A stretch of 48,875 bases of DNA from positions 1 through 48,875 of the forward strand of contig CALZJE010000016.1 in assembly GCA_945787715.1 (NCBI GenBank), in the 5' to 3' direction. The DNA is from an uncultured Ectothiorhodospiraceae bacterium. Lineage in GTDB: Bacteria; Pseudomonadota; Gammaproteobacteria; S012-40. Position numbers and translations under genes: made by a program. Numbering within the stretch: position 1 is the first letter of the stretch; each line of letters starts with the position of its first letter. Below the pieces are notes generated by a model, which worked only from the letters and a program-made list of their open reading frames with translations, made no database searches and was not told where the DNA came from. Shown piece by piece: positions 7,132 to 35,219 of this stretch.

Positions 7132-8241
7132 ATGAGTAAACGGTTGGTTAAGGGTTTAGTTATAAGTAGTTTTTTAATCTTCTCATATTCTTTTTTTAAT
7201 GGGCCAATAGCGGCTGAACCAGAGCAAGAGAAAGCTTCTCCCGTCGCCATTGGATTTACAGAGTCAGTCATTCCATTAATTTCTGGGGAAAGCAAGCATC
7301 TATCCGTGATATCCGAAAATGATTCATCTGCACAGCAGCAGGATGAAACTAAATATGAGTGCCAATATGCCTGGGGAAATGAAGAAGTTGTACGTATTTT
7401 GCCCGGATGTAACGTTACTGCACAACATATAGGACGTGTAGGATTGCTTGTTCGCCCGCTTAAAGCATTAGCTGAGAGTCAGACCAGTCGTGAACTGGAA
7501 ATTCAAGTAAAACCAAAAATTATTGGGCGTTATGTTCATGGGAGTAGCTTGTCGCTCCAAGTGGAAAGTCATTTACATCAACAATGGTTTTTAATAAACG
7601 GCTTCGAAAGTAGTAAAATCTATCGTGCAGATTTTACGGGTGAGCTAGTGCCTGGAACTCGACTACGCATAATCACTGATAATGGCAGAGCTGGAAACTC
7701 TTGTGGGAATACCGTGCCCGAAACATTATCTCATTTGACGTGTTATTTTGGTGCAAATAGAGATGCAATTTTACTTGCCATTGATCGAAAAGGTAGCATG
7801 CCGTTCAACGTTAGTATGGTATTTCGACCAGTTATTGATTCACTAATTCGTGCAAATTTTAATAATACTGATCCAATCGCTAAAAACTTGACTATCGGGG
7901 AATCGGTTTCAGGCTTTGTTCTCGCGAACGAAATTGGCTCAAATAGTAAACATTACTTTTATTTTCCTGTTGATCAAAAAGAAGAAGACACTCGTATTCA
8001 AGTGAGATTGTTTGATTTTGATGAGGATATTCAGCTCAACGTAATGTGGATTGATGGTTATTGCATTCAAGATATGATTAAAAAAACGCCAGGGCAAGTG
8101 TTGTGTCGCCTACCAGCTAAGTTTATGGGGGACGTTACAATTGTTGTGGACGGAAATAATGGTGGTAGTGGACTATTCAATGGACCAGCTATTAAAAGTG
8201 GAGGTAGTTTTTATCGATTAGTTGCTGAATATGTTCCTTAG
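7132..8241 (+). CDS. Secreted protein of unknown function
   Basis: I do not recognise this 369-residue protein. It has a signal peptide (about residues 1-28, ending GPIAA) and no further membrane segment, so it should be periplasmic or exported. Cysteines are few and could form disulphides (CQYAWGN, PGCNV, SCGN...LTCYFG, YCIQDM, LCRLP). The second half contains two beta-rich stretches, one near 140-220 and one near 255-365 with HYFYFPVDQKEEDTRIQVRL, that faintly resemble pre-peptidase C-terminal (PPC-like) domains. The ATG has AGGTG upstream. It is divergent from the lipoprotein gene by 93 nt and precedes the Wsp-like operon by 228 nt on the same strand, so a link to that operon is possible but not shown. 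Confidence 0.6.
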   Translation: MSKRLVKGLVISSFLIFSYSFFNGPIAAEPEQEKASPVAIGFTESVIPLISGESKHLSVISENDSSAQQQDETKYECQYAWGNEEVVRILPGCNVTAQHIGRVGLLVRPLKALAESQTSRELEIQVKPKIIGRYVHGSSLSLQVESHLHQQWFLINGFESSKIYRADFTGELVPGTRLRIITDNGRAGNSCGNTVPETLSHLTCYFGANRDAILLAIDRKGSMPFNVSMVFRPVIDSLIRANFNNTDPIAKNLTIGESVSGFVLANEIGSNSKHYFYFPVDQKEEDTRIQVRLFDFDEDIQLNVMWIDGYCIQDMIKKTPGQVLCRLPAKFMGDVTIVVDGNNGGSGLFNGPAIKSGGSFYRLVAEYVP

Positions 8242-8423: not shown

Positions 8424-8469
8424 ATGAGGCTATATCTTTCCTTTTCGAATTGGTAAGTAATTGTTACAT

Positions 8470-10431
8470 ATGATCAGTCGTTTATCCTTACTCGGTAAAA
8501 TAAATATCATTGTTGCGCTGGTGTTTCTCGTTGTCACTACGGTTGAAACTATGGTGAGCGTTAATCGTGACCAGGATATGTTGCTTAAAATTGCTAAAGA
8601 GCGGGTAACTGATATGACAACATGGTATTTCGATAGTTTGAACACCATGATGCTAACCGATACGATGAATCAGCGAGATATATTACGCAAAAAATTACTT
8701 GCACGAACCCAAGTGCTCAATGCAAAAGTTATCCGTGGTCAACCTGTTAAAGATCAATTTGGAGAAGGATTTACTAACGAGCAGCCAATGGATGAGTGGG
8801 ATATGACTGCTCTGGAAGGAACATCAATTCTCAATATTACTAAAGGAAGCAATGGCCGAGAACTCACTGTTGTAACACCATTCCGAGCGACTAAAAATAC
8901 CCGTGGTGTAGATTGCTTACAGTGTCATCAAGTTGAAGATGGGGCAGTTAATGGGGCAATTCGCATTAAATATTCATTGAAAACAATGGATGAAGATATC
9001 AGGGTTTCAAAAATTCTTGATATTACAACTAACCTTATCTTATTTACCATAGGTCTCATTGTTGTCAACATAATGTTGATTCGTTGGTTTAAAAAGCCAG
9101 TATCTCAGTTCATGGAAACAATACAACTTCGAGCACAAGGGGACATGGATGCTCGAGTTGATATCCAAAGTGAAGATGAGCTGGGTATGCTAGGTCTGGC
9201 GTTTAATAATATGGCGGATAATATTAATTCAGCAGCATATCGTGAGAAAAAAGCCAGCATCGAACTTCAGAAAAAAGTCGCAAAACTACGCGCGATAATG
9301 AAAAAGGTAACCGAGGGGAACCTCAGTGTTCCTATTGGAGAATATGGTCATGGTGCATTTGGAGAGTTAGCATCTAGTATTCAAACAATGGTGGATTATC
9401 TTAGAAATACTATCGACGAAAAACATCACGCAGTCGAAGAGTTGCGGTATAAAGTAGATCTATTATTGGATATTGCAAATCAGGTTTCTGATGGAGATTT
9501 AACGGCAGATCTGATGATTGAAGGTGACGATACGATTGCTCAGTTGTCAGTTGGTGTTCAAGGAATGATATTAAAATTGAATACATTGGTTGCACAAATT
9601 CAAGTGTCAGGCTCCGAAGTGAAACTGTCGGCAGATGAATTATCGAACTGCATGAAAGATGTTGAAGATACGGCAATTCATCAGGCAAACACAACAAATA
9701 GTACCTCAGTTACTGCGACAGAGATATCAAGCACCACATCAGAATTGCTTAATACTATGAGTGATGTTGCGTTGATGGCAGATAATGCGACAAGATCCGC
9801 AATGCAAAGCCATGAAGGGCTATTAAAAATGCAAGCGGTAATGGAACAAGTGGTTGAGTCATCGATCATCGTATCTGACAAATTAGGCATTTTAGATGAA
9901 CGTTCGAGAAATATTAGTGCTGTTGTGACAACTATTGCAAATGTTGCCGATCAAACTAATCTTCTTTCCTTAAACGCATCAATAGAAGCAGAAAAAGCGG
10001 GAGAGTATGGTCGAGGATTTTCCGCAGTAGCAGCAGAAGTGAGACGCTTAGCAGACCAAGCATCGATTTCCACCCTGGACATTGAGCAGATGATTAGTGA
10101 AATGCAGCAATCCGTTTCAACAGGAGTCGAAGCCATGCATAATTTTACTGATCAAGTACATGATAGTGTTTCTGAAGTTCAGCGAGTGAGTAAAGAACAA
10201 CTGGACATTATATCTCTCGTAGAGACAATGGGGCCGCATTTTGAGGTGTTACATAAGGCCATGCAATTTCAAGCTCAAGGTGCGGAGGAAATTAATGTGG
10301 CAATGATTAATCTGAACAGCGAAGCACAAAACACTGTGCATTCACTATCACTGTCTTCAACGATAATTTTAACGTTAATGAATGCTGCTAACGAATTGCA
10401 AAGCAGTGCATCGAAATTTAAACTTAAGTAA
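8470..10431 (+). CDS. wspA: WspA-like chemoreceptor with periplasmic c-type haem motif
   Basis: A 653-residue transmembrane signal transducer. TM1 is about residues 8-28. A periplasmic domain follows (about 30-185) containing CLQCH at C149-C152-H153, a covalent haem c attachment motif. TM2 is about 186-207, then HAMP-like segments and an MCP signalling domain. The hairpin tip reads VADQTNLLSLNASIEAEKAG with EYGRGFSAVAAEVRRLADQA after it. The SLNASIEAEKAGEYGRGF version is the one I recall for WspA, the surface-sensing receptor of Pseudomonas. The ATG at 8470 is preferred to a TTG three codons earlier. It heads a run of CheW, CheA-REC and REC-GGDEF genes. The Pseudomonas WspA periplasmic domain is not a haem domain to my knowledge, so the input may be redox, oxygen, NO or another haem ligand. 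Confidence 0.85.
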   Translation: MISRLSLLGKINIIVALVFLVVTTVETMVSVNRDQDMLLKIAKERVTDMTTWYFDSLNTMMLTDTMNQRDILRKKLLARTQVLNAKVIRGQPVKDQFGEGFTNEQPMDEWDMTALEGTSILNITKGSNGRELTVVTPFRATKNTRGVDCLQCHQVEDGAVNGAIRIKYSLKTMDEDIRVSKILDITTNLILFTIGLIVVNIMLIRWFKKPVSQFMETIQLRAQGDMDARVDIQSEDELGMLGLAFNNMADNINSAAYREKKASIELQKKVAKLRAIMKKVTEGNLSVPIGEYGHGAFGELASSIQTMVDYLRNTIDEKHHAVEELRYKVDLLLDIANQVSDGDLTADLMIEGDDTIAQLSVGVQGMILKLNTLVAQIQVSGSEVKLSADELSNCMKDVEDTAIHQANTTNSTSVTATEISSTTSELLNTMSDVALMADNATRSAMQSHEGLLKMQAVMEQVVESSIIVSDKLGILDERSRNISAVVTTIANVADQTNLLSLNASIEAEKAGEYGRGFSAVAAEVRRLADQASISTLDIEQMISEMQQSVSTGVEAMHNFTDQVHDSVSEVQRVSKEQLDIISLVETMGPHFEVLHKAMQFQAQGAEEINVAMINLNSEAQNTVHSLSLSSTIILTLMNAANELQSSASKFKLK

Positions 10432-10502
10432 GGCGCGTGATGAATGCAATGGGAAAAAACTTGCTCTTTTCTATGATGAAATTTTAAATATTGTAAATAC
10501 TC

Positions 10503-11186
10503 ATGAATGATAATAAAAAGTTTCAGCTAATCGAAAAATCTTGTTGGCGAAAGAACGGAGTTTGGGGGACAGAGCAACCTCGTTGCGAAAAGTTAAAATA
10601 CGTCAATCATTGTCGTAACTGTGATGTATTTGAAATTGCAGCAGTAAAATCATTTTCTGTTGCGCGTAAGGAAATCGAAGAAAATTCAATACTTGATGTA
10701 GATATTGATCGGCAATCCTACTTGCCATTTCGTTTATCTACCTGCTGCTTCTCTATCCCGACCACTTCAGTAATAACTATCTCAGACCAGATTTCATTGC
10801 ATAGTATTCCCTTTAATAAAAACAGAGTGATTAGAGGGCTTGTTGCTATTAATCATGAAGTTTATCCTTTGCTCAATATGCCAGATTTACTCTCTTTAAA
10901 TTCTGATGAAGATGTCGTTAGGCTAAGAGGGTTGCGTAAACTCTATAAAAGAGTTTTGGTGGTTAATTTAGGAGAGCAATGTGTGGCATTTTACGTGGAT
11001 GATGTCTATCCAATACATCATTTCTCAGAAAATTCGATCGAAGAATCAAAAAGTAGCACTGGGTTTTTCAAAATGACACGAGGATTTTTAAAGAAAATAG
11101 ATGCTTGGTGTGATGACTGTTTTTTATTGAGCTTGTCAGATCTGTCAATTGAGTTGGAGAAAGGCACGAATGACTCAAGATCATGA
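10503..11186 (+). CDS. wspD: CheW-type coupling protein, WspD-like
   Basis: A 227-residue scaffold that should link the receptor to the CheA kinase. Residues about 60-220 form a CheW fold (RVIRGLVAINHEVYPLLNMP is the core segment, then VLVVNLGEQCVAFYVDDVY). The N-terminus carries a four-cysteine arrangement C14-X13-C28-X8-C37-X2-C40, ending in NHCRNCDVF. I recall the same Cys-rich lead, ending HCRNCPV, in Pseudomonas WspD, so this is WspD and not WspB. Its function is not known to me; it could bind metal. The stop lies 17 bases inside the next gene, indicating tight coupling. Confidence 0.83.
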   Translation: MNDNKKFQLIEKSCWRKNGVWGTEQPRCEKLKYVNHCRNCDVFEIAAVKSFSVARKEIEENSILDVDIDRQSYLPFRLSTCCFSIPTTSVITISDQISLHSIPFNKNRVIRGLVAINHEVYPLLNMPDLLSLNSDEDVVRLRGLRKLYKRVLVVNLGEQCVAFYVDDVYPIHHFSENSIEESKSSTGFFKMTRGFLKKIDAWCDDCFLLSLSDLSIELEKGTNDSRS

Positions 11187-13446
11187 AGAGGATTTAAGTG
11201 ATTTTTCCATGCTGGATATCTTTCGCATGGAGTTGGATGGACAAATAGCGACATTAAACGAAAATTTACTCTTGCTGGAGCATGAGAGAACAAGTGCCGA
11301 GATTTTAGAAGCACTTATGAGAGCTGCTCACTCCATTAAGGGTGCTGCTCGCATGGTAGGGGTCAATGGAATTGTAAAGATTTCTCATTTTATGGAAGAC
11401 TGCTTTGTTACATTCCAGGCAAGTGATGGAGAGTTAACACGAAAAGATATCGATCTACTTCTCGAAGGCGTGGATTTAATTCAAAAAATACTGCAGTCTG
11501 ATGATGATGGTATTGTAACCTGGGAGTTGGCAAATGCTGATGCCTTAGCAGATATCGAAAGATCTCTTGCGAGTATCGGTAAAAGTGTAGATGACAGTGA
11601 AATTAACACTTCCAATTTTGATGATGGAAATGAAATTGAAGCCGAACCTGGTGCAGAAAATTTACAAAGTAGAACTGAAAAATATAGTTTAGAGAATGTT
11701 ACCACTATTCGTATAGCTGTTGATCGGCTAGATCAAATACTAAGTCTTGCAAGTAAATCGCTTGTTGAGACACATCAACTAAATGCCTTGATGCCTTCGT
11801 TTTGGCAAGTTAGACATAATCAACAGCTTATCATTTCACAACTTAATAGTTTGCAAGAGCAACTGACACTAAGCGGTGGTAGCGTCAAGATGCGTCAACA
11901 ATTAAAGGAAATTATTACTGCGTCTAACAACATACGATATGATTATTCAGAATGTATCTCAAAGCTTGATGCTATTGACCGGCGTGCATCGGTAATTTCG
12001 GATCATCTTCACCGCGAAGTTATGGCCAGTAGAATGCGACCTATTGCGGATATCGTAAACGTTTTACCAAGGGTGGTACGTGATATTGGCAGAAAGCTAA
12101 ACAAAAATGTTCGTTTGAAAATGAGTGGATTGTCTACATTAGTTGATCGAAATGTTTTGGAAAAAATTGATATTCCTATAAAACATATTATTCAAAATGC
12201 CATCGATCACGGTATTGAGCATCCTCAAGAACGTCTGAAGAACGGTAAGGACGAAGTTGCTACTATATCATTAAATGTCAGTATGAGTGCTGGTATGTTA
12301 TTTATCATCATCGAGGATGATGGTGCGGGGATTGACTATGATATTTTGAAGGAAAGAATAATAAACAAGGGTCTTGCCACTAGTCAAAAGTTAGAAAATC
12401 TAGATAGCATGGGATTGATAGAATTTCTTTTTTACCCTGGATTTAGCACGCGCACAGTAGTTAGTGATATTTCCGGACGTGGTGTTGGGCTGGATTTGGT
12501 GAAGGATGCTGTCACCGCACTTAGTGGTAGTGTGTACGCAGTGAGTGAAACAGGAAAAGGAACCTGTTTTCAGTTGATTTTACCGTTGACGGTTTCAGTC
12601 ACACGCACGCAACTGGCAACGATTAACGGCGAGTCTTATGCTTTCCCCGCTGCTGCTGTCGAACGAATCTACTATGCGAATAATGAAGACTTAACTAAGA
12701 GCCATTTGGGTTATGAAATTAAGATTGAAGGTGAGGTAATAAAATTAGTCAATGCGAGCGCTGTGTTTAATAGCATGTTACCTAGAGCGTTGTCCGAACA
12801 AGTTATAGTTTTGGTTGTAACACATGCGAATAAAAAATACGGAGTGATTGTGGAGAAGGTTGATGGTGAGCATGAGCTTTCCATTCATAAACTCTCAGGA
12901 GAAATTGGAAAAATAGAAGGCATAAGTTCTGCTGCAATTCTTAATAGCGGATCATTAACGCTTATTATCGATATTGAAGAATATTTCCAGTTAATAGAAA
13001 AACTTTTTCATGAAAACCACTTTGTTAAGTTGAGCGAGACGGAAGATATTGGTCTTTGTGATATTTTTCGAGTACTAGTTGTCGATGATTCTTTGACTGT
13101 ACGTGAAACAGAAAAGCAAGTGCTACTTAATTTGCATTATCAAGTCGCTACTGCGTTTAATGGTGAGGAAGCATTAAACATCTTACAAACAGAGAGTTTT
13201 GATCTCATTGTAACTGATATCGATATGCCAGTAATGGATGGTATAAGGTTGGTCAACGAAATACGTTTTCAGCCAAAGATAAAAGATATACCTATTATGA
13301 TTGTTTCCAATCGAGATAAATCATTTGTTGATCAAGGCGTTGTTTTAGATGAGAAAACAGTGTTTTACAGTAAAGACCACTTCGAGCCAGAAAGCTTTGC
13401 AAGTACTGTTCATCAATTGGCGAAAATGGCCGTTAATATAATCTAG
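11170..13446 (+). CDS. wspE: Hybrid CheA histidine kinase with C-terminal receiver, WspE-like
   Basis: A 758-residue cytoplasmic kinase. The N-terminal Hpt domain has MRAAHSIKGAARMVG with phospho-acceptor His54. A dimerisation region is followed by the HATPase domain (HIIQNAIDHGIEHP N-box, EDDGAGIDYD, GRGVGLDLV), a CheW-like domain (LPLTVSVTRTQLATINGES), and a C-terminal receiver (LVVDDSLTVRETE, DLIVTDIDMPVMDG). This order is that of WspE, which phosphorylates WspR. The ATG at 11170 is chosen: GGAGAAAGG precedes it, whereas the upstream TTG at 11149 has no such signal. It overlaps wspD by 17 nt. No local methyltransferase or methylesterase gene accompanies it. Confidence 0.9.
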   Translation: MTQDHEEDLSDFSMLDIFRMELDGQIATLNENLLLLEHERTSAEILEALMRAAHSIKGAARMVGVNGIVKISHFMEDCFVTFQASDGELTRKDIDLLLEGVDLIQKILQSDDDGIVTWELANADALADIERSLASIGKSVDDSEINTSNFDDGNEIEAEPGAENLQSRTEKYSLENVTTIRIAVDRLDQILSLASKSLVETHQLNALMPSFWQVRHNQQLIISQLNSLQEQLTLSGGSVKMRQQLKEIITASNNIRYDYSECISKLDAIDRRASVISDHLHREVMASRMRPIADIVNVLPRVVRDIGRKLNKNVRLKMSGLSTLVDRNVLEKIDIPIKHIIQNAIDHGIEHPQERLKNGKDEVATISLNVSMSAGMLFIIIEDDGAGIDYDILKERIINKGLATSQKLENLDSMGLIEFLFYPGFSTRTVVSDISGRGVGLDLVKDAVTALSGSVYAVSETGKGTCFQLILPLTVSVTRTQLATINGESYAFPAAAVERIYYANNEDLTKSHLGYEIKIEGEVIKLVNASAVFNSMLPRALSEQVIVLVVTHANKKYGVIVEKVDGEHELSIHKLSGEIGKIEGISSAAILNSGSLTLIIDIEEYFQLIEKLFHENHFVKLSETEDIGLCDIFRVLVVDDSLTVRETEKQVLLNLHYQVATAFNGEEALNILQTESFDLIVTDIDMPVMDGIRLVNEIRFQPKIKDIPIMIVSNRDKSFVDQGVVLDEKTVFYSKDHFEPESFASTVHQLAKMAVNII

Positions 13447-13497
13447 TATCCGGTCAATTAGGGGCTGAAATGCACCTAAATATTCATTTATGAATAT

Positions 13498-14589
13498 GTG
13501 TGTCAACAACGTAACTACTTTGGAATTCTTATTGTGACCAGAGCAATAGACCATAATTCACCGAGAAAAAAACATACCGTCTTGGTTGTTGATGACCAAT
13601 TGTTGGTTGTTGAAGCTGTTCGAAGAATGCTTCATACGGAAACAGATATTGAGTTCTACTATTGCACCGATCCAACCAAAGCGATTGATAAAGCAATAGA
13701 GGTTTCACCTACTGTCATTCTGCTTGACTTAGTTATGCCTGAAATTGATGGCATGACGTTGCTTGGCTTTTTTCATGCAAATATGAAAACAGAAGACATA
13801 CCTATCATCGTTGTATCTGCAATTGAAACTCCTGTTGACAAAGGTGCTGCATTTTCTGCCGGTGCCACAGATTATATTGTTAAGCTGCCGGATAAAATTG
13901 AATTAGTTGCCAGAATTCGATCTCATTCTCAAAGTTATCTTAATAAGCTGGAAAGAGACTCAGCTTTTATCGAATTAAATCAACTAAAGGCTGAGTTAGA
14001 AGAGAGTAATGAAGCATTACAGTTGCTCTCATGTATGGATGGTTTAACTGGCGTTGCAAATAGACGGCGATTTGATGATTTTCTTGCAAAAGAGTGGAAA
14101 CGCGCTATGCGTGAGAAAGCCAATCTTGCGTTAATCTTTATCGATATCGATTATTTTAAAAAATATAACGATAATTATGGACATCAAAAAGGTGATGATA
14201 CTCTTAAACTGGTGGTTAGCGCCTTGAACTCTGGCATAAATCGACCTGCAGATTTATTGGCTCGTTACGGTGGTGAGGAATTTGTTGTTGTTTTACCAGA
14301 TACTACTATGCAGGGTGCCTTGTTGTTGGCAAATAATCTGCGTGAACGAGTTCATGCGTTAAAAATTCCTCACGAGCATTCTGATACAGATCAGTATGTC
14401 ACCGTCAGCTTGGGTGTATCCAGTTGCGAAGCGGGGCAAACTTTCAAGTCAAGTACTAAACTAATTAATGATGCTGATAAAGCGTTATATGAAGCCAAAG
14501 ATGCAGGTAGAAACATTGTCAGCGGTTCATGTGAATGTAAAGACGGTAGATGTACGGTGGTAGACGGTATGATTTATAAATCTGTTTGA
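13498..14589 (+). CDS. wspR: WspR-like response regulator diguanylate cyclase
   Basis: Makes c-di-GMP when phosphorylated. The receiver (about 27-145) has VLVVDDQLLVVEAVRR and phospho-acceptor D77 in VILLDLVMPEIDG. A coiled linker (about 150-180) leads to a GGDEF domain with DGLTGVANRRRFDDFL, IDIDYFKKYNDNYGHQ and the active-site GGEEF (258-262). An RPAD sequence five residues before it is a product-inhibition I-site. The whole chain follows Pseudomonas WspR closely, including VKLPDKIELVARIRSHSQSY. The GTG start at 13498 is uncertain; another GTG at 13534 has GGA upstream. An unusual tail of about 20 residues holds CECKDGRC (C345, C347, C352). The gene overlaps the convergent corB-like gene by 16 nt. 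Confidence 0.92.
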   Translation: MCQQRNYFGILIVTRAIDHNSPRKKHTVLVVDDQLLVVEAVRRMLHTETDIEFYYCTDPTKAIDKAIEVSPTVILLDLVMPEIDGMTLLGFFHANMKTEDIPIIVVSAIETPVDKGAAFSAGATDYIVKLPDKIELVARIRSHSQSYLNKLERDSAFIELNQLKAELEESNEALQLLSCMDGLTGVANRRRFDDFLAKEWKRAMREKANLALIFIDIDYFKKYNDNYGHQKGDDTLKLVVSALNSGINRPADLLARYGGEEFVVVLPDTTMQGALLLANNLRERVHALKIPHEHSDTDQYVTVSLGVSSCEAGQTFKSSTKLINDADKALYEAKDAGRNIVSGSCECKDGRCTVVDGMIYKSV

Positions 14590-15845
14590 TTTAGTTGGGG
14601 CCAGATTCGTGCAGTTTTAATCATGTTTCCTTGCATTTGTACAATTTCAACAGGATGTTCTGTAATTTTAACACTAGTGCCTGGTTCAGGTATGCTTTCA
14701 AGATATTCTGTTAATAATCCATTTAATGTTTTTGGGCCATCAGAAGGCAAAGTCCAGTGCAGCATTTTGTTGAGATCTCGAATGCTCGCACTTCCATCGA
14801 TGAGAAAAGATCCGTCAGCTTGTGGATGAATATCTTTTGTCAGCATTGAAGGATCTGTTGTAAATTCACCAACAATTTCTTCCAGAATATCCTCAAGAGT
14901 TACCATGCCTTGAATGTCTCCATACTCATCGACAACTAGACCAATTCTTCTTTCTTGTCGTTGAAAATTGAGTAACTGTGTGTTCAGCGGTGTTGCTTCA
15001 GGAATAAAGTAGGGATCTCTGATCTCCTCCAATAATGCTTCGCGAGTAAATTCATCATGCGCAAGTAGGTGGAGTACATTCCTGATGTGAATTATTCCTT
15101 CAATTTGATTTATGTCTTCTTTGTAGACTGGAAGGCGGGTGTGTAAACTGTGCTTTAAAATATCGATAATTTCATTCCAGTCCGCGTTAAGATCGATTCC
15201 GGAAACTTCATTTCTCGGCACCATAATATCTTCGACCGTCACCTTTTCAAGATCAAGAATACTTAACAGCATTTTCTGGTGCCGTTTCGGGATTAATGCC
15301 CCTGCTTCATTAACCACTGTCCGCAATTCTTCAGTACTCAGGTTTTCATTTTCTCTTTTATCGAGTTTTATACCAAAACATTTAAGGAGAGTGTTAGCAA
15401 AAGCATTAATCACCCAAACGAGTGGATAAAGGATTTTCAGCAGAGGAGTGTAAATGAGAGCAGCTTTAAAAGCGATTTTTTCAGGGTAGAGTGCAGCAAC
15501 AGTTTTAGGGGCAACTTCAGAAAATATTAATATTACAAAGGTCAGCAATCCTGCTGCGATCGCAATAGCCGCCTCTCCCCCCAGTCGTAGAGCAATGATG
15601 GTTGTAATAGATGACGCAAGAACATTAACGAAATTGTTGCCCAATAGAATTAACCCGATGAGCCGGTCGGGGGTTTCCAGTAACTTGGTCGCTCTCATTG
15701 CACCTTTGTGTTTATGCTTAACCAAATGGCGTAAACGGTAACGGTTTAGAGACATCAAGCCTGTTTCGGAGCTCGAAAAGAAACCAGATAGCAACAAAAG
15801 TACAACTAAAAGGGCGAATAAGACGCTTAACGGGATTTCGTCCAA
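14574..15845 (-). CDS. CorB/HlyC-CorC family membrane protein (CNNM-CBS-CorC)
   Basis: A 423-residue inner-membrane protein linked to Mg/Co efflux. The N-terminal CNNM (DUF21) domain has FSSSETGLMSLNRYRLRHL and several membrane helices to about residue 140. A CBS pair (VEDIMVPRNEVSGIDLNADW; RIGLVVDEYGDIQGMVTLED) and a C-terminal CorC_HlyC domain follow. The start is a TTG at 15845, since the first membrane helix begins right there and GGGAG lies upstream. In many gammaproteobacteria corB, ypjD and ffh are neighbours, as here. The gene converges on wspR with a 16-nt overlap and no terminator between them. Confidence 0.88.
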   Translation of the reverse strand: MDEIPLSVLFALLVVLLLLSGFFSSSETGLMSLNRYRLRHLVKHKHKGAMRATKLLETPDRLIGLILLGNNFVNVLASSITTIIALRLGGEAAIAIAAGLLTFVILIFSEVAPKTVAALYPEKIAFKAALIYTPLLKILYPLVWVINAFANTLLKCFGIKLDKRENENLSTEELRTVVNEAGALIPKRHQKMLLSILDLEKVTVEDIMVPRNEVSGIDLNADWNEIIDILKHSLHTRLPVYKEDINQIEGIIHIRNVLHLLAHDEFTREALLEEIRDPYFIPEATPLNTQLLNFQRQERRIGLVVDEYGDIQGMVTLEDILEEIVGEFTTDPSMLTKDIHPQADGSFLIDGSASIRDLNKMLHWTLPSDGPKTLNGLLTEYLESIPEPGTSVKITEHPVEIVQMQGNMIKTARIWPQLNQTDL

Positions 15846-33203: not shown

Positions 33204-35219
33204 TCAATCCAAAGTAACCACCATTTCAGGTTTCGTCGCTTCTACAGTTTCAAACAACGGCATAGACCTCGGCATGGCCAGGCGAGAACATACTGCTTGA
33301 ACTTCTTCATAAATTTGCTGTGGTTTGTCGGTGTAGCGTTGTGAAAAGTGGAATGGCACAAGTCGGCCAACTTCGGCGGCCATCGCGATTTCGCCACAGG
33401 CGCGCGTGGTTAAATGACCAGTGCGCATCGCTTGCTCGGCATCGGCCTCAACGAAACGGGCTTCGCAGAAAAAGGTGTGCGCGTAGTGAGCCAGGGTCTG
33501 CAGATGTTGGCGATTGTCTGGAGTGTCCGCGAGGTCGGTGGCATACACCAGCTTCTTGGTTGGTGCGATCAGCACAAGATCGTCCGCTAATGTTGCAATA
33601 TCTGTTTCACTACCGTCTGGCAACCGCACCCGTGCCTTCCAATTTTCAGCTAGCAGGTGTTGCTTTAATTCACTCAGCCACGGTCCTGGTTGCAAGCCGC
33701 GCATTCGCAGGCGGTCTTTGCGAATGTTGATCTCCTTTGCGGGTTCAAAGGTATAGACTAGTACCGGTGTGTGGTGATCTAGTAGTTGTGCCCTCACGCG
33801 GAAGCCAGCTTCTTGCAGTACTATTCCCTCGTCTAGCTCGACTTCCTTTAGAAACTCTCGACCTGCATGCCCAGCTTGTAAGCGAAACCAGTGCAGATGG
33901 TTAGTATGTAACTTAGTATGCAACTCTGCGACTTCGAAGCAGGGGCCACGTTCTGCCACACGATCCCAAAGAAAGCCTTGCAGAAAACCTTCGATGTGTC
34001 GGGCCAGCCCCGGCGGACCATAGAGCCTGCAGGCTGGGAACTCACCGATACGCGAGCGCAGTAACCATGGGAAACCGCTGATATGGTCCATGTGCGCATG
34101 GCTAATGAAGATGTCGGTCACCTGATGGGTAATGCGAGCCGGCAGGCGAGAACCATCACCCAAATCAAAGAGTAGGCTGCGGCGCTGATGGCGCAAGCGT
34201 AGGTGCAGAAGGGGATCACCGAAGACACCATTAACCAGGCTAACATCGGCCGACCCGACCCGACCAACGACACGTGGTCCGCCACTTTCCTGCATCGGTA
34301 TAGTCATGTCAGGGGGCGGCAGGTATTCGAGTCGCTCCGTTACAAATGGTATTGCGGTTTCCAACAGACCATCTATTGAGCGTTGTGCGTCACGCACCAA
34401 TAGGGTGTCGATCGCCAACGGCACAGCAGATGATCTGATGGTTAATTGCTGGGCTTGAAGTCTCACCACCTCAGCCATAGCTACAGGCTGATTGCATTGC
34501 AATAGCGCGACCTGCCTACCCACCCAGGCATTTTTTTCGCCAAGCGGTGGTGGTGTGCCAATAATGTTCAGCCTATCCAGATCGAGAGAGTGCTCTGTAG
34601 CTTCACTGACATAGGCATCCCAGCGTTCAGTACGCTGGCGGGCACGGGCACGCTTGCCCGGTCGTCTTGCTTCTGCTGAAGCGTGGACAACAAACACCTC
34701 GCTTGCTAAAGCACGCAGTTCATCAAGTAGCGGTGGTGGACGTTCTGCAGCGGTGAGGGCTAACACACCATCCGCATCAGTCGCCTCTAACAAACCTTGC
34801 AACAGCTCGCGACCTGCAACACCACGCACTACACCAGGGCCATCGATCAAGAGCACGCCATCGTTTATTAGTTGTGCCAGGCGTCGTACTGCCGTCACCA
34901 AAGGCAAACGGAAACGGCCTGCATCAAGACTGCACAAGGCCTCAAAATCCGAAACCTGCCAACTATCCGCCTGCCATCTGCCGAGAGAGACGGCACCTGG
35001 AAGACCAAACGCAGGAGAGCCAGGATCGGCGCAGATGCAGAAACACTTTCGACCTGTCGCAAAAAGGAAACGCGCCAGCTGCGCAGCCAGCGTCGATTTA
35101 CCTACACCCGGTGGACCATATAGCAACAGCCGACGATCATGTTTTATCACGGCATTGGTGATAGCTTCGGCGTTACAGGCTAAAATAGGCATTTCGTAGT
35201 TAGCTATATTTTTCACCAT
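33204..35219 (-). CDS. Fusion of Clp1/Grc3-like polynucleotide 5'-kinase and RNase Z-type MBL nuclease
   Basis: A 671-residue two-domain protein. The N-terminal P-loop domain has LLYGPPGVGKSTLAAQLARF (Walker A about 35-43) and, soon after, ADPGSPAFGLPGAVSLG (64-80), which mirrors the DxGQ-x-FTPPG-x-VSL signature of the Clp1/NOL9/Grc3 RNA 5'-kinases. Walker B is VLLIDGPGVV (122-131). From about 305 the chain is RNase Z-like: VNGVFGDPLLHLRLR, ISHAHMDHISGFPWLLRSR (ligands H374, H376, D378, H379), GPPGLARHIEGFL, LDHHTPVLVY, LVYATDLADT, TGHLTT and the FHFSQRY end. RNase Z makes tRNA 3' ends. It starts at ATG 35219 with AGGAGG about 14 bases upstream, 18 nt after the DUF6763-like gene, probably co-transcribed. 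High GC contrasts with the protease gene that converges on it. Kinase activity is inferred from motifs only. Confidence 0.82.
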   Translation of the reverse strand: MVKNIANYEMPILACNAEAITNAVIKHDRRLLLYGPPGVGKSTLAAQLARFLFATGRKCFCICADPGSPAFGLPGAVSLGRWQADSWQVSDFEALCSLDAGRFRLPLVTAVRRLAQLINDGVLLIDGPGVVRGVAGRELLQGLLEATDADGVLALTAAERPPPLLDELRALASEVFVVHASAEARRPGKRARARQRTERWDAYVSEATEHSLDLDRLNIIGTPPPLGEKNAWVGRQVALLQCNQPVAMAEVVRLQAQQLTIRSSAVPLAIDTLLVRDAQRSIDGLLETAIPFVTERLEYLPPPDMTIPMQESGGPRVVGRVGSADVSLVNGVFGDPLLHLRLRHQRRSLLFDLGDGSRLPARITHQVTDIFISHAHMDHISGFPWLLRSRIGEFPACRLYGPPGLARHIEGFLQGFLWDRVAERGPCFEVAELHTKLHTNHLHWFRLQAGHAGREFLKEVELDEGIVLQEAGFRVRAQLLDHHTPVLVYTFEPAKEINIRKDRLRMRGLQPGPWLSELKQHLLAENWKARVRLPDGSETDIATLADDLVLIAPTKKLVYATDLADTPDNRQHLQTLAHYAHTFFCEARFVEADAEQAMRTGHLTTRACGEIAMAAEVGRLVPFHFSQRYTDKPQQIYEEVQAVCSRLAMPRSMPLFETVEATKPEMVVTLD

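Follow-up and report, generated by a model that had tools for sequence, protein, structure and literature searches.

A four-gene Wsp-like locus with a predicted heme receptor and a likely loss of receptor methylation

Can a chemosensory pathway do without the enzymes that reset it? In Pseudomonas, the methyltransferase WspC methylates the receptor WspA constitutively, the methylesterase WspF removes the groups, and loss of WspF locks the pathway on (PMC4748119, PMC6324874); Lysobacter Wsp has been cited for the same WspC/WspF logic (PMC9758175). The question arises for a four-gene locus at positions 8470 to 14589 (+) of a 48,875-nt stretch of DNA (“the window”) from an uncultured Ectothiorhodospiraceae bacterium. 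The window corresponds to contig 16 of a draft genome of 4.40 Mb in 227 contigs, with an estimated completeness of 100%; this genome is referred to here as G000, G002–G012 are genomes of relatives, and L numbers denote the individual loci compared. An initial annotation described the locus as a minimal Wsp-like pathway in which WspB, WspC and WspF are missing locally, and reasoned that the pathway must adapt in another way, perhaps through its kinase receiver, or act as a simple switch. Here, we address this question with computed gene content, orthology, in-place reduction, intermediates, methylation-site erosion and excitatory-path conservation. We consider it likely that the four genes represent a reduced form of the heme-receptor Wsp system in which receptor methylation has been lost, and the pathway probably works as a non-adapting switch from heme to cyclic di-GMP (c-di-GMP).

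The locus consists of four consecutive, intact open reading frames (ORFs) encoding a receptor, a CheW, a CheA with a receiver domain (CheA-REC) and a REC-GGDEF protein, and all four proteins have Pfam domains well over the cut-offs. The genes are as tightly spaced as had been described: 71 nt separate the receptor and CheW genes, the CheW and CheA genes overlap by 17 nt, and 51 nt separate the CheA and wspR genes. The parts are as follows:

8470..10431 (+), WspA-type chemoreceptor (methyl-accepting chemotaxis protein, MCP), 653 residues; Pfam MCPsignal 3.3e-30, HAMP 1.4e-23
10503..11186 (+), WspD-type CheW coupling protein, 227 residues, the sole coupling protein of the locus; Pfam CheW 2.5e-11
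10542..10622 (+), Cys-rich N-terminal WspD motif (C14, C28, C37, C40), also present in Mesorhizobium, Cupriavidus and Novosphingobium WspD
11170..13446 (+), WspE-type CheA-REC hybrid kinase, 758 residues; Pfam Hpt, HATPase_c, CheW, Response_reg
13072..13323 (+), receiver domain of the CheA protein, phosphorylation residues DD, D, S and K intact; Pfam Response_reg 5e-19 and alignment
13498..14589 (+), WspR-type REC-GGDEF diguanylate cyclase; Pfam GGDEF 2.3e-50, Response_reg 2.7e-18
14242..14253 (+), RxxD product-inhibition site (I-site) of WspR, RPAD; sequence and alignment
14269..14283 (+), GGEEF active-site motif of WspR; sequence and alignment

The receptor is laid out as a first transmembrane segment, a predicted periplasmic c-heme Cache-like sensor, a second transmembrane segment, two HAMP units and a signalling hairpin. 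Its better start codon is at 8470; the mechanically called ORF opens at a TTG at 8461. The coupling protein scores as WspD, with the WspD model beating the WspB model, and its motif (SCWRKNGVWG..C..HCRNC) is the same as in the WspD-position proteins of complete wsp clusters. Over 764 aa, the CheA protein shares 37% identity with the protein at the WspE position of a Mesorhizobium wsp cluster, and its histidine phosphotransfer (Hpt) motif, AAHSIKGAAR, is intact. WspR, whose true start may lie downstream of the GTG at 13498, has all of its output features: the phospho-Asp of the receiver, GGEEF and RxxD. Judged from these domains and motifs, and from a genomic site shared with complete operons, the locus fits the proposed minimal Wsp-like pathway toward c-di-GMP.

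The local absences were also borne out. There is no CheR, CheB or WspB-like gene in or beside the cluster, and a search of the gap between wspE and wspR found no wspF remnant; this gap is 45–176 bp in four-gene loci, compared with about 1,050–1,140 bp in complete loci. A published survey that selected for synteny defined Wsp by a conserved wspA–wspF gene set, reported no operon lacking WspB or WspD, and named Pseudomonas as the sole gammaproteobacterial genus with Wsp (PMC8552884). The locus is not a canonical Wsp member, since it lacks wspB, wspC and wspF, which define the system. The orthologous core (WspA-class receptor, WspD, WspE and WspR) is nonetheless present, as indicated by matches to the annotated Mesorhizobium cluster and to relatives, by the shared locus, and by the WspE tree.

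Where did the four genes come from? We surveyed 369 genomes of the class, 61 of which have a WspE-type kinase, and examined the loci around these kinases and around 80 named receptor loci. Among loci not cut by contig ends, nearly all are full A-B-C-D-E-F-R, many with the same heme receptor. Such complete heme-receptor operons (L090–L148, L204–L283) are found widely, in many families of Gammaproteobacteria, and often share a conserved site next to CNNM/CorC and ffh. The four-gene A-D-E-R arrangement, which the initial annotation had proposed seeking in relatives, occurs only in the window's own family, in five genomes (G000, G003, G005, G007 and G010). The family also has intermediates: A-C-D-E-F-R in G011 and, truncated, in G012; A-D-E-F-R in G008, where wspF is kept and wspC is gone; and D-E-F-R at a contig end in G006, whose CheB receiver has lost its phospho-Asp. 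G009 has only E-R (L057 2011-5329), with no receptor, no CheW and a very divergent kinase, and no match turned up in G002 (95% complete).

The neighborhood of the locus is informative in this regard:

14574..15845 (−), CNNM/CorC gene, convergent, outside the pathway, marking the orthologous locus; adjoins wspR in G003, G008, G011 and many complete wspABCDEFR loci

This gene belongs to a block, continuing with a 267-residue inner-membrane protein, a metallo-beta-lactamase and ffh, that adjoins the four-gene locus, the G003, G008 and G011 loci, and many complete loci. Therefore, the reduction happened in place. In the WspE tree, the window's family lies on one side of a branch with 96/96 support, G011 and G012 fall between the complete systems and the rest of the family, and G006 and G010, the former with and the latter without wspF, are sisters. 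Trees separate this family from the others and put the A-C-D-E-F-R genomes beside the complete systems. The locus is thus a reduced Wsp system and not an independent invention, and the simplest history is that WspB was lost, then WspC, and then WspF at least twice.

If methylation was lost, its substrate sites should be considered. The reference for the comparison was 24 columns of the two methylation helices that are at least 80% E or Q in complete systems:

9616..9789 (+), eroded first methylation helix (MH1), residues 383–440; 7 of 11 E/Q columns kept, against a mean of 10.3 of 11 in complete systems
10216..10425 (+), eroded second methylation helix (MH2), residues 583–652; 6 of 13 E/Q columns kept, against a mean of 12.0 of 13 in complete systems

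Across the four-gene receptors, E/Q retention is 0.55–0.82 in MH1 and 0.46–0.77 in MH2, compared with complete-system means of 0.91 and 0.92. Signalling-tip columns are retained at 0.80–1.00, compared with 0.95 in complete systems. The other conserved positions of MH2 are kept at 0.83–0.94 (0.86 in the window), and therefore the E/Q positions have been hit preferentially; MH1, by contrast, is relaxed along its entire length. Retention in MH1 and MH2 is 0.91 and 0.85 for the A-C-D-E-F-R receptor of G011, and 0.73 and 0.31 for the A-D-E-F-R receptor of G008. The window receptor has no strict methylation consensus, and the lenient form is also unmatched within its methylation helices; several complete systems likewise fail the strict consensus and match only the lenient form. 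The change at these sites consists of amides lost and basic or hydrophobic residues gained. The idea that the substitutions mimic a methylated, neutralised state was dropped, as acidic counts are 5–8 in four-gene receptors and 5–9 in complete systems.

While the methylation sites have eroded, the excitatory path (receptor tip, kinase core, WspR phosphosite and GGEEF) is conserved. The Hpt histidine and the GGEEF, RxxD and phospho-Asp of WspR are retained in the four-gene genomes wherever those parts are present. Between G000 and G003, codon positions 3, 1 and 2 differ at 0.62, 0.32 and 0.18 of sites in the receptor gene (60% protein identity) and at 0.61, 0.34 and 0.20 in wspR (64% protein identity); over the genes overall, third positions differ at 0.61–0.65 and second positions at 0.17–0.36. 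This pattern is consistent with purifying selection on the proteins.

What might the pathway sense? The account in the initial annotation did not include a heme motif in the receptor:

8914..8928 (+), CLQCH (CxxCH), predicted heme c attachment motif, residues 149–153, between the two membrane helices; sequence and alignment

CxxCH is invariant across 52 aligned relatives. An AlphaFold model of receptor residues 1–200 has a pLDDT of 90.7, and its top Foldseek match is the heme sensor domain of Geobacter GSU0935 (3b42, E 2.4e-5). The model aligns with Tll0287 (5b82) at Z 10.0, with a root mean square deviation of 3.5 over 120 residues. WalK and other Cache domains equal or exceed Tll0287 by Z, so the fold alone indicates only a Cache domain, and it is the invariant CxxCH, together with the GSU0935 match, that supports assigning heme. 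The heme of GSU0935 has His144 and Met60 as axial ligands (PMC8396549); the invariant Met61 and Met66 of the window receptor are candidate axial ligands. A sequence-only search of the PDB with the sensor gave chance cytochrome matches only, and a profile search gave matches only to the HAMP and receptor parts. Signalling-type sCache_heme domains have nitric oxide (NO)-sensor properties (PMC12889525), and the model suggests that the periplasmic domain is a c-heme Cache fold that senses NO or redox state. Maturation of c-type heme is plausible, since CcmE is found in the genome. Cytochrome d1, a denitrification marker (PF02239), has no match above the cut-off in the genome, and local NO production through NirS is therefore not supported.

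From these features, we infer heme attachment, the ligand, the direction of the response and the absence of adaptation. The c-heme Cache domain would change state through NO binding or redox, and HAMP would relay the signal to the tip of the receptor. As the only coupling protein, the WspD-type CheW would link the receptor to the WspE-type kinase, whose Hpt domain would phosphorylate the WspR receiver, and WspR would synthesize c-di-GMP. Without WspC, no methylation would accumulate, and there would be nothing for WspF to remove. Output would track receptor occupancy directly, with no memory; feedback of c-di-GMP on the I-site of WspR and the loss of phosphate would limit it, and the WspE receiver might contribute as a sink. 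The argument that loss of WspF locks WspR on, and hence that another form of adaptation is needed, does not carry over to this locus: in Pseudomonas, the pathway is locked on because WspC keeps working. Here, WspC is also gone, WspF outlived WspC in G008, and the receptor methylation sites have decayed. Therefore, the paradox disappears, and of the earlier two-part guess, the simple switch holds up better.

That guess also included adaptation through the WspE receiver. The receiver could be the main off-switch, serving as a phosphate sink that replaces methylation; this is compatible with a reduced, methylation-free system, and we regard it as possible but doubtful. The phosphorylation residues are intact in G000 and G003, and mutations in the Pseudomonas WspE receiver alter output, although the same study reads the role of the receiver as feeding WspF (PMC6324874). 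However, the receiver is damaged in G005, which has lost the acidic pair and the phospho-Asp, and in G008, where the phospho-Asp is shifted and the Lys lost. A sink is thus possible in the window but is not a required, clade-wide substitute. A quite different explanation is that the locus is a remnant in decay, heading for complete loss and signalling little or not at all. The reduction of G009 to E-R and the lack of a match in G002 would fit this, as would the coupling protein, the least conserved of the four, which is only about 40–43% identical to its G003 counterpart. The four intact frames, the retained Hpt and WspR residues, the excess of third-position changes and the invariant sensor motif argue against it, and we consider decay very improbable.

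Alternatively, methylation could persist in trans, through chemotaxis CheR/CheB or an orphan CheR. The whole genome has four CheR and three CheB proteins, encoded in a flagellar-type cluster (contig 5), in a MotA/MotB-ParA cluster (contig 104), and on contigs 6 and 18 in clusters that have CheA, CheD and receptors of their own. Phylogenetic trees group three of the four CheR and all three CheB with family-wide chemotaxis orthologues, including those of relatives without Wsp-like genes, and the branches parting them from WspC and WspF are fully supported. The fourth CheR is an orphan CheR-fold methyltransferase (L291 4883-5689, contig 52) beside glycine-betaine synthesis methyltransferases. It is the best match in the genome to a family WspC (37%), and its only counterpart (L288 5797-6627, 51% identity) is in G003, the closest relative of the system. 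However, it has no tetratricopeptide repeat, CheB partner or chemosensory neighbors, its best BLAST matches are chemotaxis CheRs, and one tree places it outside WspC. No gene of this type is among the CheR matches of G007 and G010, and no relative of it was found in the viral contigs searched. Its identification as a relocated WspC is not supported, nor does an approximately unbiased (AU) test, given below, reject it. Overall, the trees and protein searches identified no WspC or WspF orthologue in the genome, with the grouping of the orphan CheR not settled by the AU test. Some E/Q residues persist in both methylation helices, which favors methylation in trans, but the consensus is lost from the receptor, and we judge this explanation unlikely. 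Separately, weak CheW matches on contigs 26 and 51 were rejected as pathway parts; these proteins (L018 1474-3309; L019 1-1851, minus strand) fuse a CheW-like domain to a long acidic low-complexity region with one probable membrane segment. In G006, contig 10 carries a further chemosensory cluster (L290 4902-12151) with a long CheR, which branches next to WspC, two CheW-like genes, a receptor, CheA and CheB.

Several points weigh against a reduced heme-receptor system without methylation. In the AU test, grouping the orphan CheR with WspC was not rejected (p 0.44), nor was grouping it with the WspC of the family itself (p 0.17), and the receptor could be modified in trans by CheR and CheB from other clusters. 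The methylation-site comparison takes no account of kinship among the sequences, and some non-E/Q positions of MH1 are relaxed too (0.65–0.80), so the erosion is partly general. The five four-gene genomes are draft assemblies. The sCache_heme family (PF11845) does not match the window receptor in Pfam, with weak matches in 5 of 13 members (best E 0.012); PF21563 (Mcp40H-20_sensor) matches 2. Lastly, L133, L146 and L242 have kept wspC and lost wspF, so methyltransferase-first loss is not universal. The combination of wspC without wspF in these three loci is the one expected to lock the pathway on.

The locus can be compared with three known systems. It resembles Wsp (wspABCDEFR; Pseudomonas, Burkholderia, Lysobacter) in its receptor tip class, its WspD-type CheW with the Cys motif, its CheA-REC, its REC-GGDEF output with GGEEF and RxxD, and its A-D-E-R gene order. 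It differs in lacking WspB, WspC and WspF, in its eroded methylation sites, and in having a predicted c-heme Cache-type domain in place of the surface-sensing domain of WspA. Similarly, its receptor appears to share with sCache_heme/Tll0287-like proteins, including GSU0935, an extracytoplasmic Cache fold that carries CxxCH and is joined to HAMP and an MCP signalling domain; unlike those proteins, it is too distant in sequence for a Pfam match, and its output is c-di-GMP through WspE/WspR. E. coli evolved without CheR (PMC12270135) also has a chemoreceptor pathway lacking a methylation enzyme. That case is laboratory-evolved and concerns motility, whereas the window lineage represents natural loss in several genera and a c-di-GMP pathway.

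Elsewhere in the window, positions 7132-8241, upstream of the receptor gene, encode a protein without a Pfam match. Its homologues precede the receptor gene in G003 and L204 as well, so it could have an accessory role among the closest relatives. Positions 33204-35219 (−) encode a 671-residue protein with a CLP1-type P-loop kinase domain and a metallo-beta-lactamase domain. A promoter scan gave fewer sites than in shuffled sequence.

Methylation-based adaptation is counted among the core parts of chemosensory pathways, and a natural series that runs from seven genes down to four, intermediates included, probes its role. We lean, by a modest degree, toward the view that a lineage of Gammaproteobacteria turned a chemoreceptor array pathway into a non-adapting switch by which a heme sensor of NO or redox state controls c-di-GMP. 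In this view, WspB and the methyltransferase disappeared and the methylesterase then followed, at least twice, while the methylation sites of the receptor decayed in step, as did the kinase receiver in some members. The series lets one ask what adaptation does for a slow output like biofilm formation, and how receptors retune after its loss. It also ties a c-heme Cache sensor family, whose NO-sensor properties were shown very recently, to Wsp signalling across many Gammaproteobacteria.

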